This document shows positions 57,920 to 64,000 of a DNA stretch of 64,000 nucleotides, one piece after another; the stretch's first letter is position 1; each line of letters starts with the position of its first letter. A program made the position numbers and the translations under genes. The notes under the pieces are model-generated. The model was given only the letters and a program-made list of their open reading frames with translations. It was not told the DNA's origin and ran no database searches. This DNA comes from Albibacterium bauzanense (lineage in GTDB: Bacteria > Bacteroidota > Bacteroidia > Sphingobacteriales > Sphingobacteriaceae), in the NCBI RefSeq assembly GCF_004339765.1, contig NZ_SMGO01000002.1:186001-250000 (forward strand), read 5' to 3'.

Positions 57920-59059
57920 ATGAAAATAGGTATCGTTTGTTACCCAACTTTTGGCGGAAGCGGTGTCGTTGCGACAGAATTAGGCAAAGCTTTAGCTGCA
58001 CATGGACATCAGGTTCATTTTATAACTTATAACCAACCTGCACGATTAGATTTCTTTTCGGCAAATCTTTTTTATCACGAAGTTAGTATATCTAAATATC
58101 CTTTATTCGATTTTCCACCCTACGAGTTAGCTCTCTCCAGTAAATTAGTGGATGTTGTTAGATTCGAAAAACTGGATCTACTTCATGTACATTATGCCAT
58201 ACCTCATGCTTCAGCAGCTTATATGGCAAAACAGATACTAAAGACCTACAATATAAATATCCCTGTTATTACCACTTTGCATGGAACTGATATTACACTT
58301 GTTGGGCGCGATCCAAGCTATAACCCGGTAGTTACATTCTCAATAAATGAATCAGATGGAGTTACCGCTGTTTCTGAAGACCTGAAGAAGGATACTTTAA
58401 ATCATTTCAATATAACCAAAGAAATACAAGTAATCCCTAACTTTATTGACCTAAGCAGATTCAGCCTTAAACCTAGAGAACATTTCAAAAAAGCAATTGC
58501 TCCCGGAGATGAACGAGTAATTACACATACATCCAACTTCAGAAAAGTAAAAAGGACAATGGATGTAATTCACGTCTTTAAGAAGATAAAGGAAACAATA
58601 CCTTCCAAACTTCTCATGGTTGGTGATGGTCCGGAACGTGCAAATAATGAAAAACTTTGTCGTGAATTAGGAATTGTTGATGATGTTCGGTTCTTGGGTA
58701 AGCAAGATGCTGTAGAAGAGATCTTATCCGTTTCAGACTTGTTTTTAATGCCTTCTGAGTCGGAAAGTTTCGGACTAGCGGCTCTTGAAGCAATGGCATG
58801 TAAAGTTCCTGTGGTAGCAACCAATGTTGGCGGAATACCTGAGTTAATCGTAAATGGTGTAACAGGCTTTATGAGTAACGTAGGAGATGTTGATGATATG
58901 GCAAAAAATGCACTTTATATCTTAGAAGATTGCGATCGTTTAAATACCTTTAAAAAGGCAGCATTGAACCGGGCTAAAAAGTTTGAGCTAAGCTTAATTC
59001 TTCCACATTATGAAGCCTACTATCAAAAGATAGTTGATGCATCGAAGGCAAATTTATAA
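57920..59059 (+). CDS. bshA: N-acetyl-alpha-D-glucosaminyl L-malate synthase BshA
   Basis: 379 residues. GT4 glycosyltransferase that joins GlcNAc to L-malate, the first step of bacillithiol synthesis. Distinct BshA features: KIGIVCYPTFGGSGVVATELG, YHEVSISKYPLFDFPPYELA, HVHYAIPHASAAYMAKQ and the C-terminal ESESFGLAALEAMACKVPVVATNVGG (here in two blocks). BshB and BshC are not in the window. Monocistronic, 97 bp after the beta-lactamase-fold gene. Confidence 0.9.
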   Translation: MKIGIVCYPTFGGSGVVATELGKALAAHGHQVHFITYNQPARLDFFSANLFYHEVSISKYPLFDFPPYELALSSKLVDVVRFEKLDLLHVHYAIPHASAAYMAKQILKTYNINIPVITTLHGTDITLVGRDPSYNPVVTFSINESDGVTAVSEDLKKDTLNHFNITKEIQVIPNFIDLSRFSLKPREHFKKAIAPGDERVITHTSNFRKVKRTMDVIHVFKKIKETIPSKLLMVGDGPERANNEKLCRELGIVDDVRFLGKQDAVEEILSVSDLFLMPSESESFGLAALEAMACKVPVVATNVGGIPELIVNGVTGFMSNVGDVDDMAKNALYILEDCDRLNTFKKAALNRAKKFELSLILPHYEAYYQKIVDASKANL

Positions 59060-59134: not shown

Positions 59135-59142
59135 TATATTTG
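59135..59142 (+). promoter_or_regulatory. Candidate -7 promoter element of the rimP-nusA-infB operon
   Basis: TATATTTG matches TAnnTTTG, with the leader hairpin starting about 12 bases downstream. No clear TTG -33 is seen. Confidence 0.5.
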
Positions 59143-59153
59143 TGCTTCTTGAG

Positions 59154-59185
59154 AAAGAGGGAACATGTCGTTCCCTCTTTTTTTT
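59154..59185 (+). terminator. Leader terminator/attenuator hairpin upstream of rimP
   Basis: Perfect 11-bp stem AAAGAGGGAAC / GTTCCCTCTTT with a five-base loop, then five more T residues. It lies between the -7 element and the rimP ATG at 59202, so it would end transcription before the operon unless read through. Outer arms GCTTCTT (59144-59150) and AAGAAGC (59187-59193) could extend the structure. Confidence 0.8.
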
Positions 59186-59201
59186 AAAGAAGCTTTTTAT
59201 A

Positions 59202-59666
59202 ATGAATATAGAAAAATACGTTACCGAATTGGTGAGAGATAAGATCTCAGACCGGGAAGATTTATTCTTGGTTAGCGTTCAATATGTTCCTAATGCAAAA
59301 TTATCTATTTTAGTTGACGGGGATAACGGTCTGAACATTCAAGACTGTGCTGCTATAAGCAGACATGTGGGTTTTCATCTTGAAGAAGAAAACATAATAG
59401 AAGCCGCTTATAACATTGAAGTATCCTCTCCGGGTATAGAATCTCCTTTGGTTCTTGACCGCCAATTTATGAAAAACATTGGTCGTGAAGTAAGTGTTAA
59501 ATTAACCAATGGAGAGAAGCATGAGGGAGTATTACTTAGTTATACTCCGGAAGGAATTGTTATCAATGAATCAATAAAAGAAAAAGGGAAGAAGGCTATT
59601 CAGCAAGAAAACTTTTTTAATATCGATAATATAGTAGAAACAAAAGTGTTAATTTCATTTAAATAA
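59202..59666 (+). CDS. rimP: Ribosome maturation factor RimP
   Basis: 154 residues from the ATG at 59202. A longer frame from a GTG at 59142 would run through the leader hairpin and is rejected. Blocks: EKYVTELVRDKISDREDLFLV, DGDNGLNIQDCAAISRHV and YNIEVSSPGIESPL, the RimP signature. It assists 30S subunit maturation. First gene of rimP-nusA-infB; nusA starts two bases after its stop. Confidence 0.95.
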   Translation: MNIEKYVTELVRDKISDREDLFLVSVQYVPNAKLSILVDGDNGLNIQDCAAISRHVGFHLEEENIIEAAYNIEVSSPGIESPLVLDRQFMKNIGREVSVKLTNGEKHEGVLLSYTPEGIVINESIKEKGKKAIQQENFFNIDNIVETKVLISFK

Positions 59667-59667
59667 A

Positions 59668-60903
59668 ATGAGCAATATTAATCTGATAGACTCATTTCAA
59701 GAGTTTAAAGACTTTAAAAACATCGATCGCCCTACAGTGATCAGCGTATTAGAAGAAGTGTTTCGTAGCATGATTCGCAGACGCTTTGGTACGGATGAGA
59801 ACTGTGACGTAATTGTAAATCCGGACAATGGTGACCTTGAAATATGGCGCACACGAGTTGTTGTTGAGGATGAATTTTCTGAAGATGATGACTTAGAAAT
59901 TGAATTGGCTGAAGCAAGAAAGGTAGATGCTGATTTAGAAGTTGGCGACGACTTTATTGAGGAGATCACCCTAGAAAGTTTCGGTAGACGTGCAATTTTA
60001 GCTGCCCGTCAAACTTTAGTTTCTAAAGTATTGGAGCTTGAAAAGGATGAGATATTCAAGAAATATAAAGATAGAGTAGGTGAGTTGGTGACTGGAGAGG
60101 TTTATCAGATCTGGAAAAAGGAAACCTTGGTGCTGGATGATGATGGTAATGAATTAATATTACCAAAGACAGAGCAGATCCCTGCCGATTATTTCAAAAA
60201 AGGAGATAGTATCCGTGCAGTCGTTCATAAAGTAGATATGATGAATGCCTCGCCTAAGATTATTATTTCCAGAACTGCACCGGAATTTCTCCACCGATTA
60301 TTCGAGCTGGAAGTCCCCGAAATCTTTGATGGCCTTATTACAATCAAAAAGATTGTAAGAGAACCAGGCGAGCGTGCGAAAGTAGCTGTTGAATCATATG
60401 ATGATCGTATTGACCCGGTGGGTGCTTGTGTGGGTATGAAAGGTTCACGTATTCATGGTATCGTTCGTGAATTGCGTAATGAAAACATTGACGTTATCAA
60501 TTTCACAAACAATACTTCTCTATATATCACCAGAGCATTAAGCCCTGCTAAAATATCATCGATTAAACTTGATGAGGAGGAAAAACGTGCTGAAGTTTAT
60601 TTACAATCAGACCAGGTTTCATTAGCGATTGGCCGTGGAGGACATAATATTAAACTGGCAGGTAAATTAACGGGATATGAAATTGATGTATACCGTGAAT
60701 CTGATGAAAGCGATGAAGATGTTGATATTGAAGAATTCTCAGACGAAATCGAGAGCTGGATTCTTGATGAATTTAAACGTGTAGGCCTTGACACAGCTCG
60801 ATCTGTACTTGCATTAAGTGTGGAGGAACTAATAAAAAGAACTGATTTAGAAGAACAAACTATCATTGATGTTATTCAGATTTTCAAATCTGAGTTTGAA
60901 TAA
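59668..60903 (+). CDS. nusA: Transcription termination/antitermination factor NusA
   Basis: 411 residues. The N-terminal RNA-polymerase-binding region (about 1-125), S1 domain (about 130-200, GELVTGEVYQIWKKETLVL) and two KH domains (VDPVGACVGMKGSRI and QVSLAIGRGGHNIKLA) are all present; the C-terminal helical part is short (about 355-411). It pauses or terminates RNA polymerase. It may act on the hairpin in its own operon leader, as is known for NusA autoregulation in E. coli; that is inference here. Confidence 0.96.
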   Translation: MSNINLIDSFQEFKDFKNIDRPTVISVLEEVFRSMIRRRFGTDENCDVIVNPDNGDLEIWRTRVVVEDEFSEDDDLEIELAEARKVDADLEVGDDFIEEITLESFGRRAILAARQTLVSKVLELEKDEIFKKYKDRVGELVTGEVYQIWKKETLVLDDDGNELILPKTEQIPADYFKKGDSIRAVVHKVDMMNASPKIIISRTAPEFLHRLFELEVPEIFDGLITIKKIVREPGERAKVAVESYDDRIDPVGACVGMKGSRIHGIVRELRNENIDVINFTNNTSLYITRALSPAKISSIKLDEEEKRAEVYLQSDQVSLAIGRGGHNIKLAGKLTGYEIDVYRESDESDEDVDIEEFSDEIESWILDEFKRVGLDTARSVLALSVEELIKRTDLEEQTIIDVIQIFKSEFE

Positions 60904-60996: not shown

Positions 60997-63900
60997 ATGA
61001 CAGAAGGTAAAAGCATTAACTTACTGAAAGCCGCCAAAGAATTAAACATTGGTATAGCTACAGCTGTTGATTTTTTAAGTAAGAAAGGTTATGATATAGA
61101 GTCAAAACCAAATACGAAACTGAACGGCGAAATGTACAATGTTCTATTGAAAGAATATCAGGGGGACAAAATCGTGAAGGAAGAAGCCAATCAAATTGTT
61201 ATTGGTAAAATCCGCCGCGATGAGACTCCTATTGAATCTATTCAAGATAGATCTGATAGAGGTTCAGAAACAGAAGAAGTTCTTATAAAAAACAGCACTT
61301 TCAGCCCACCTTCTGTAGAAAAAAATAAAGAGCAAGAAAATCTACCTTTATCTACTACTACTGAAGAAGATAAGGCAGAAGATACTGAAGCTAGCACTCG
61401 CAAGGGTGTAAAGGTGGTAGGTAAAATTGATTTAAAAAACTTAAATCAACGTACTAAACCTGAAAAAGCTAAACCTTCAACTGAGCAAGTGGAGAAAGAA
61501 AATAAAGTCGAATTGAAACCTACTCCTGCCCCTAAAGAGCCAGAAGTAATTAAGGAAGAAATAAAACCATCTGCTCCTGAAACACCGGTAAGCTCAGAAA
61601 AACCTGTTGAATCTCCTAAGCCTGTAGTAGAAGCCGAGGAAAAAAAGGAAGCTCAGGAAACTAAAGTTGAAGAAGTTAAAGCTGAAGAAGCTCCTGTAGA
61701 GAAAACTCCAATAGAAAATACTAAAATAGAAAAAGAGAAAGAAGCAAAACCGAAGACCGAAGAACCTCGGAAAACAGACTCTGATGGTGTTTTTCGTACT
61801 AAGACCGTACGATTAACTGGTCCAAATGTAGTTGGTAGAATAGAACTTCCAACTTCTTCTCGTAGAAAGAATCAACCAGTTGCTTCTTCTACTGGTTCTG
61901 GTACAGATCATAAACGTAAACGTAAACGTAAAGAAGCTCCTACAGGACAAAACAGGCCTCATACACCTTCAGCAACAGGTGCTACTGGTACACCAAATGC
62001 ACCTCATACAGGTCAGGCTCCCAATCGTGGTGGAGCTAACACTGGCGGAACTAACAGACCAGGACAACATCCTCGGGGAAAAAACGATTTCAATAAAGGA
62101 AGAGCACGTCAGCCTGCTGTTAAAAAAGAAGAACCAACGGATAAAGAGATACAAGATCAAATTAAAGCAACTCTTGCACGTTTAAGCGGCGCTGGTAAAT
62201 CCGGTAAGTTTGCTCAACGAGCGAAACTAAGACGTCAAAAACGTGATGATGTTGCCTTATCTGCAGAAGAAGCTGCTTTAGAACGTGAATTACAATCAAA
62301 AGTACTTCGAGTAACAGAATTTGTTACGGCTAATGAACTTGCTACTCTTTTAGACGTTCCGGTAACACAGATTATTTCTACTTGCATGAGCTTAGGCCTG
62401 TTCGTATCAATTAATCAACGTCTCGATGCAGAAACAATTAGTATTGTTGCTGAAGAGTTTGATCATGAGGTAGAATTCATTAAACCTGATGAAGAAGAAG
62501 CATTCGATCTGGAAGAAAAGGACAATCCGGATAACTTGATTCCTCGTTCACCAATTGTAACGGTAATGGGCCATGTGGATCATGGTAAGACCTCGCTTCT
62601 TGACTATGTTCGTAAATCAGATGTAATAACTGGTGAGGCTGGTGGAATTACTCAACATATAGGTGCTTACGAAGTTACTCTTGAAAACGGTCGCAAGATC
62701 ACTTTCTTAGATACTCCAGGTCACGAAGCGTTTACCGCCATGCGGGCTCGTGGTGCTAAAGTTACAGATATTGCTATTATTGTAATAGCTGCAGACGATA
62801 GCGTAATGCCTCAAACGAAAGAAGCTATTAACCATGCTCTGGCAGCTAATCTTCCTATCGTATTTGCCTTTACAAAGATAGATAAGCCAAGTGCAAACAC
62901 TGATCGTGTTCGTGAACAATTATCTGCGATGAATATTCTTGTAGAAGAATGGGGTGGTAAGTATCAGGCGCAAGAGATATCTTCTAAAACAGGAGAGAAT
63001 GTAAATCTATTATTAGAGAAAGTATTGCTTGAAGCAGACTTACTTGAGTTAACTGCAGATCCAAACAAGCGAGCCGTTGGTTCAGTTGTGGAAGCAGAGC
63101 TTGATAAAGGACGTGGTATTGTTACAACAGTTCTTATCCAATCTGGTACGTTACGTGTAGGGGATGCAATTCTAGCAGGATCGCATAGTGGAAAGGTTAA
63201 AGCTTTAACCAACGAACGTGGACAAAAGGTGGTTTCGGCAGGTCCTTCATCGCCCGTACAGATTCTGGGAATGACAGGAGGTGCACCTACAGCAGGTGAT
63301 AAGTTCTATGTTTTGGAAAGCGAATCTGAGGCAAGAAGAATAGCGAATCAGAGATTGCAATTACAAAGAGAACAAGGTCTGAGAACGCAAAAACATATTA
63401 CTCTGGATGAGATTGGCCGAAGACTAGCAATCGGTAACTTTAAAGAGTTAAATGTAATTGTTAAAGGTGACGTTGATGGATCTATTGAAGCACTTTCAGA
63501 TTCTCTATTAAAGTTATCTACAGAAGAAATCCAGGTAAATGTTATTCATAAGTCGGTCGGACAGATTTCAGAATCTGACGTTTTATTAGCTTCCGCTTCT
63601 GACGCAATTATAATCGGTTTCCAGGTTAGACCTTCAACTGGTGCAAGGAAACTAGCAGAACATGAACAAATAGATATTCGTTTATATTCAATCATTTACG
63701 ATGCAATTGATGAGCTTAAATCAGCCATGGAAGGTATGTTGGCTCCTAAATACGAAGAGAAGATTGTTGCGAACGTTGAAATTCGTGAAACATTCAAAAT
63801 CAGTAAAGTTGGTACAATTGCCGGCTGTATGGTATTAGACGGTAAAATAAACCGTAACCACGATATCCGGATAATTCGAGACGGAGTAGTTGTTTACACC

Positions 63901-64000
63901 GGTAAACTGGCATCCCTGAAACGCTTTAAAGATGACGTTAAAGAAGTTTCTACAGGATACGAATGTGGTTTGAATATTGATAAATTTAATGATATTCAAG
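60997..64000 (+). CDS. infB: Translation initiation factor IF-2 (3' end outside window)
   Basis: The frame is open from the ATG at 60997 to the window end (1001 codons). The N-terminal IF2-N helix bundle ([23 protein letters not shown]) is followed by a long Lys/Glu/Pro-rich linker (about 90-380), typical for Bacteroidota IF2. The G domain has [18 protein letters not shown] (G1), [16 protein letters not shown] (G3) and FTKIDKP (G4), followed by the beta-barrel domains II to IV. It places initiator tRNA on the ribosome. The stop codon is not seen. Confidence 0.96.

Follow-up and report, generated by a model that had tools for sequence, protein, structure and literature searches.

A compact terminator hairpin in the rimP-nusA-infB leader of Bacteroidota, probably a NusA-responsive attenuator

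The closest described counterpart of the element reported here is the rimP-leader, an attenuator in which a hairpin followed by a T-stretch occupies the 5′ UTR of rimP-nusA-infB, 4–130 nt from the gene, and for which NusA has been proposed as the regulator (Naville and Gautheret 2010, PMC2965389). The main text of that study makes no mention of Bacteroidota. In the nusA operon of B. subtilis, NusA-stimulated intrinsic termination in the 5′ leader has been shown experimentally to control transcription into the gene (PMC12288461), the leader being about 180 nt long (PMC2965389). RNA-seq of the S. agalactiae operon gbs0413-gbs0418 revealed short and long transcripts, with a terminator stop 31 nt after the start, and NusA feedback was again proposed (PMC4448216). 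The E. coli metY-rimP-nusA-infB operon carries two terminators, t1 and t2, and NusA has a role in its regulation (PMC6511841), described as feedback (PMC2965389, PMC6511841). As for the Bacteroidota themselves, the available text of a 2021 study of Flavobacterium psychrophilum reports a structured 5′ element upstream of rimP with no Rfam match, and offers no mechanism, signature or phylum-wide analysis of it (PMC9723704).

We analyzed a 64,000-nucleotide stretch of the Albibacterium bauzanense genome (hereafter the window), near the end of which a rimP-nusA-infB operon, a core gene set encoding factors for ribosomes and transcription, follows a short leader (Table 1). A preliminary description of this DNA held that a perfect 11-bp stem with T residues behind it lies between a promoter element and rimP, and both the sequence and RNA folding bear this out. 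The stem begins 11 nt after the −7 box, ends 21 nt before the rimP ATG (59202), and has a G-rich 5′ arm and a C-rich 3′ arm (GAGGGAAC/GTTCCCTC). The leader folds at −28.3 kcal/mol (z −8.6), and none of 200 shuffles was equally stable. In Flavobacterium, the −7 box has the consensus TAnnTTTG and lies at −12 to −5 (PMC9723704), which places the transcription start near 59147; an RNA ending at the T-run would then be about 39 nt long. Two other readings of this region were ruled out. An in-frame GTG at 59142 is not the rimP start, as the RimP proteins of relatives align from the ATG at 59202, residue 1, and an upstream ORF from the loop ATG (59165) was dismissed by inspection, the loops differing in sequence and length among relatives.

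Table 1. Features of the rimP-nusA-infB leader and operon, in window coordinates.
Feature	Position	Strand	Basis
Bacteroidota −7 promoter box TATATTTG, consensus TAnnTTTG	59135..59142	+	sequence; box kept in relatives; consensus from PMC9723704
Predicted transcription start	59147 (about 59146-59149)	+	inferred from box position
Terminator hairpin	59154..59180	+	sequence, folding, covariation, phylum survey
Hairpin 5′ arm AAAGAGGGAAC	59154-59164	+	
Hairpin loop ATGTC	59165-59169	+	
Hairpin 3′ arm GTTCCCTCTTT	59170-59180	+	
Run of eight T, predicted release point	59178..59185	+	sequence; T-rich tail kept in relatives
Outer arms GCTTCTT (59144-59150) and AAGAAGC (59187-59193)	59144..59193	+	present, not conserved
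rimP	59202..59666	+	Pfam RimP_N and RimP C-terminal domain
nusA	59668..60903	+	Pfam NusA_N and NusA-like KH domains
infB (IF2), continues beyond window end	60997..64000	+	Pfam IF-2, IF2_N, GTP_EFTU
Upstream gene, GT4-type glycosyltransferase	57920..59059	+	divergent gene in its place in sister species

A hairpin scan of the window found seven that resemble terminators, and the one in the rimP leader alone has a TAnnTTTG box no more than 45 nt upstream. Of the remaining six, three lie directly past gene ends, one is intergenic and two are within genes. The rimP-leader hairpin was not picked up by a generic terminator scan of the window, and Rfam searches of the leader with default and permissive settings returned matches solely below the gathering scores, with no family that fits. 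Among the loci compared, the closest named one is from Pedobacter (NusA 86%, RimP 62% identity), which points to Sphingobacteriaceae as the probable family.

Similar to the rimP-leader, the window element sits in the 5′ UTR of rimP-nusA-infB, consists (by sequence and folding) of a short hairpin and a T-stretch, lacks a visible antiterminator and, at 21 nt from the gene, falls inside the 4–130 nt range. The G-rich 5′ and C-rich 3′ arms are a further likeness in the window, while some other lineages of the phylum differ. The signature sets the two apart, being GGGc(...)gCCC in the rimP-leader and GGGRAC(...)GTYCCC in Bacteroidia. The window has GGGAAC/GTTCCC and most relatives have GGGGAC/GTCCCC; because the GGGc/gCCC signature is absent, we file the window as a variant of the rimP-leader and not as a member. 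Whereas the B. subtilis leader runs to about 180 nt, the stop here is predicted at about 39 nt. S. agalactiae offers the same operon with an early intrinsic stop, in a different phylum and with a different promoter type, and the stop in our case is a prediction. The E. coli leader likewise has hairpins with T-runs ahead of rimP, but its terminators are in tandem, it has several promoters and RNase III sites, and it contains an initiator tRNA gene. It had been claimed that E. coli exerts NusA control through other sequences; the role of NusA stands, but E. coli also has a GGGC/GCCC hairpin with a T-run, immediately ahead of rimP.

Conservation of the leader is extensive among relatives. We identified RimP in 58 of 60 related genomes, and in every one of these rimP is preceded by a T[A/G]nnTTTG box and a hairpin whose tail is rich in T; a check for close relatives in which the hairpin is absent thus found it in all 58 leaders. 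The majority form of the stem in relatives and in Bacteroidia is GAGGGGAC/GTCCCCTC, with both GGGGAC and GTCCCC exact in 33 of the 58. The GGGAAC/GTTCCC of the window and its sister species is a compensatory change from G-C to A-U, and this variant recurs in several Saprospiraceae loci among the matches listed; genomes of family f25 have a similar stem, GAAGGGAA/TTCCCTTC. In an alignment of 50 leaders (49 distinct), 93.4% of the pair cells of a 12-pair stem are paired, a count that leans to the consensus since eight outlier leaders, deviant in sequence yet keeping a hairpin and T's, were omitted. Two-sided changes in the stem number 15 across the 49 distinct leaders, against 5.0 in shuffles. 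None of 500 shuffles reached the observed values for pairing and two-sided changes, although the sequences are related and this figure is not a probability. When the stem register is slid, paired cells drop to about 72% or below. The T-rich tail is also kept, with at least five T in the 8 nt after the stem in 54 of 58 relatives, and a mean of 6.3 T in 8 on the sense side versus 4.2 on the other strand.

A survey of the whole phylum gave a similar picture. We defined a strict intrinsic terminator as an uninterrupted stem of 6 or more pairs, at least 4 of them G-C, with at least 6 T in 9 nt, located no more than 150 nt before the start. Such a terminator is present in 112 of 157 Bacteroidota rimP leaders, with 0.5 expected from dinucleotide shuffles and none in 562 coding windows taken from these loci; these shuffles and coding windows served as the survey controls, and the intergenic comparison was made within the window. 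Some of the other 45 leaders do have a visible hairpin, but one that falls outside the strict definition. The gene next after rimP is nusA in 136 of the 157 loci, the remaining 21 ending too soon downstream to judge. This phylum-wide conservation strongly supports the earlier proposal of a leader terminator, or attenuator, of rimP-nusA-infB. Comparison of leaders in other Bacteroidota for a conserved hairpin of varying sequence showed structure and place to be kept while sequence drifts, with stems such as AAGTGGGG/CCCCACTT in f35, CGCCC/GGGCG in f34, GCCCG/CGGGC in f32 and GTCCCG/CGGGAC in f48. The variation is seen across lineages of the phylum; within Bacteroidia the stem sequence is kept as well. 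Hairpins with C-rich 5′ arms, for example CGCCC..GGGCG then ATTTTT, occur in f34, f32, f48 and f31 (among L180-L278), and their polarity is reversed relative to the rimP-leader signature.

In a collection scan, the Bacteroidia stem is also nearly specific to this position. We scanned the pattern GAGGGRAC(3-8)GTYCCCTCTTTT across a collection of named species genomes and obtained, among the matches listed, at least 80 loci, at least 68 of them Bacteroidota by title. The 68 Bacteroidota loci among the matches listed comprise 63 with RimP just downstream, 2 cut by the stretch end and 3 other cases; RimP was downstream of none of the 12 non-Bacteroidota loci among them. A covariance model of the leader, R2, has its best match in its own genome at the rimP leader. 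Other R2 matches in that genome were rejected as like elements, the four inspected lying at or near gene 3′ ends with no promoter box directly ahead. At five loci (L071, L076, L099, L109 and L139), the rimP hairpin is preceded at 17–69 nt by a tRNA-Gln(UUG) gene on its own strand, and there is no TAnnTTTG box within 50 nt ahead of the hairpin. The tRNA promoter may drive transcription of these leaders, an arrangement that recalls E. coli metY-rimP.

RimP is a widespread ribosome maturation factor, and some members of the phylum lack it. No RimP match was found in 18 of 392 phylum genomes; some of the 18 are also without NusA, probably owing to an assembly gap. Eleven of those genomes together with G162 and G051 form a set of 13 rimP-less genomes with NusA, from families f16, f50 and f67; in G051 and G162, no RimP scored over the cut-off when matches up to E 10 were listed. 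Read by eye, all 13 have a hairpin with a T-run directly ahead of nusA, and in most a Bacteroidota-type promoter sequence lies ahead of the hairpin. Examples are GGGCagaaGCCC-ATTTTTT in f50, a family in which a GGGC/GCCC stem is found, and GGAAAGGGGGATTTGACAAAGTCCCCCTTTTCG in G051. The infB gene (IF2) follows nusA in all 13, none of which has nusA and infB unlinked. The simplest reading, made without a tree, is three losses of rimP, one per family. Genomes that are 98–100% complete and without detectable rimP are found in f50 (L279, L286-L289, L291, L292, L296) and f67 (L290, L293-L295).

The prediction that the element stays with nusA after rimP loss agrees with what is seen in these 13 genomes of three families. 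Since the hairpin leader is kept in them, it belongs to nusA-infB and does not need RimP. The rimP-less genomes are in effect a natural experiment, removing RimP as a necessary regulator and leaving NusA (or IF2).

NusA stimulates hairpin-dependent pausing and intrinsic termination. We think it probable that the hairpin acts as an intrinsic terminator close to the promoter and attenuates rimP-nusA-infB, with NusA as the feedback signal. Transcription would begin about 10 nt ahead of the stem, and a fraction of polymerases would halt at the T-run, releasing a transcript about 39 nt long, while the remainder reads through into the operon. Given its known effect on pausing and termination, rising NusA would enlarge the stopping share, so that nusA and its operon partners would come under negative feedback. 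We infer from the sequence that transcription terminates at the T-run, and premature termination is the best reading of this run given that 54 of 58 relatives preserve it and that the sense side has the stronger run. By analogy with the other systems, NusA would set the efficiency of termination; this link rests indirectly on the hairpin staying with nusA in the 13 rimP-less genomes and on the B. subtilis, S. agalactiae and E. coli reports. Established directly are the anatomy, the compensatory changes, the conservation of a stem and T-run behind a promoter box, and the association of the leader with nusA over rimP. In the literature, we found no transcript data or NusA test on this leader in any member of the Bacteroidota. 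A stop near +39 is early, and sigma may remain bound at that point and compete with NusA.

No antiterminator or sensor domain is visible in the leader, which fits a factor acting on the terminator itself. It had been suggested that the outer arms GCTTCTT/AAGAAGC add a second structure. The arms exist as written, but their pairing is not conserved, averaging 4.92 bp in 37 family members versus 4.50 bp in shuffles, and the first three bases of the GCTTCTT arm are 5′ of the predicted transcription start (59147). As this pairing barely exceeds that of shuffles, a second structure or antiterminator formed by the outer arms was rejected as unsupported, and we do not think that they are functional.

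A leader with no sensor would also suit a constitutive attenuator, in which a strong promoter is given a fixed low readthrough and nothing is sensed, as would the keeping of structure and T-run while the stem sequence differs between lineages. We consider this unlikely, however, as the operon encodes a termination factor, the counterpart leader in B. subtilis is NusA-regulated (PMC12288461), the stem sequence is kept within Bacteroidia, and a weaker promoter would have an equal effect at less cost. A stem sequence kept across Bacteroidia (both arms exact in 33 of 58) and nearly specific to rimP leaders among the matches listed in the collection scan, would be expected if a different factor, such as IF2 or a ribosomal or other RNA-binding protein, read the attenuator by recognizing the GGGRAC/GUYCCC stem, and infB always comes after nusA. 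Yet this stem gives way to unrelated hairpins with T-runs in some Bacteroidia and in the phylum's other lineages, and the 13 rimP-less genomes show that RimP is not a necessary partner, so that we hold such a reader to be distinctly unlikely.

Two further alternatives dispense with attenuation of the operon. Hairpins near a 5′ end can stabilize mRNA, and this one is about 7–10 nt from the predicted 5′ end, as might suit a stability element or an RNase III site that protects or processes the message without terminating it. A stabilizer has no need of a T-run, though. With the run preserved in 54 of 58 relatives and a weaker one on the other strand, this role is very improbable. Least credible is an ordinary 3′ terminator of the upstream gene. 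In the window that gene shares the strand of the operon and stops about 95 nt short of the stem, but the promoter box sits between the gene and the hairpin, and the hairpin remains after rimP loss and where the upstream gene is divergent. By a rough ORF count, this is so in 46 of 157 loci. Judged by eye, the divergent neighbor resembles a TonB receptor gene in the sister species (G001) and a universal stress gene in several f26 genomes. With upstream genes so often divergent, the sister species included, the hairpin is not the upstream gene's terminator.

A further point goes against NusA-responsive attenuation as the best explanation: the stem sequence of Bacteroidia is kept beyond what general stimulation of termination needs, which leaves room for another RNA reader. 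IF2 could be the signal instead of NusA, as infB comes after nusA in every case seen. More tentatively, and with considerable doubt, the GGGRAC/GUYCCC stem of Bacteroidia might be a sequence-specific site for NusA or for an unknown RNA-binding factor; if so, the operon would be controlled by specific binding, beyond a general stimulation of termination.

To our knowledge, this kind of control has been little described in Bacteroidota. The element is a Bacteroidota variant of the known rimP-leader attenuator, to which we add a phylum-wide survey, the GGGRAC/GTYCCC signature and the retention of the leader on nusA after rimP loss. The rimP-nusA-infB attenuator is thereby extended to a very compact, phylum-wide form in bacteria that have their own promoter type and few characterized attenuators. 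The conserved stem sequence permits a clean test of whether the regulator reads sequence or structure alone.
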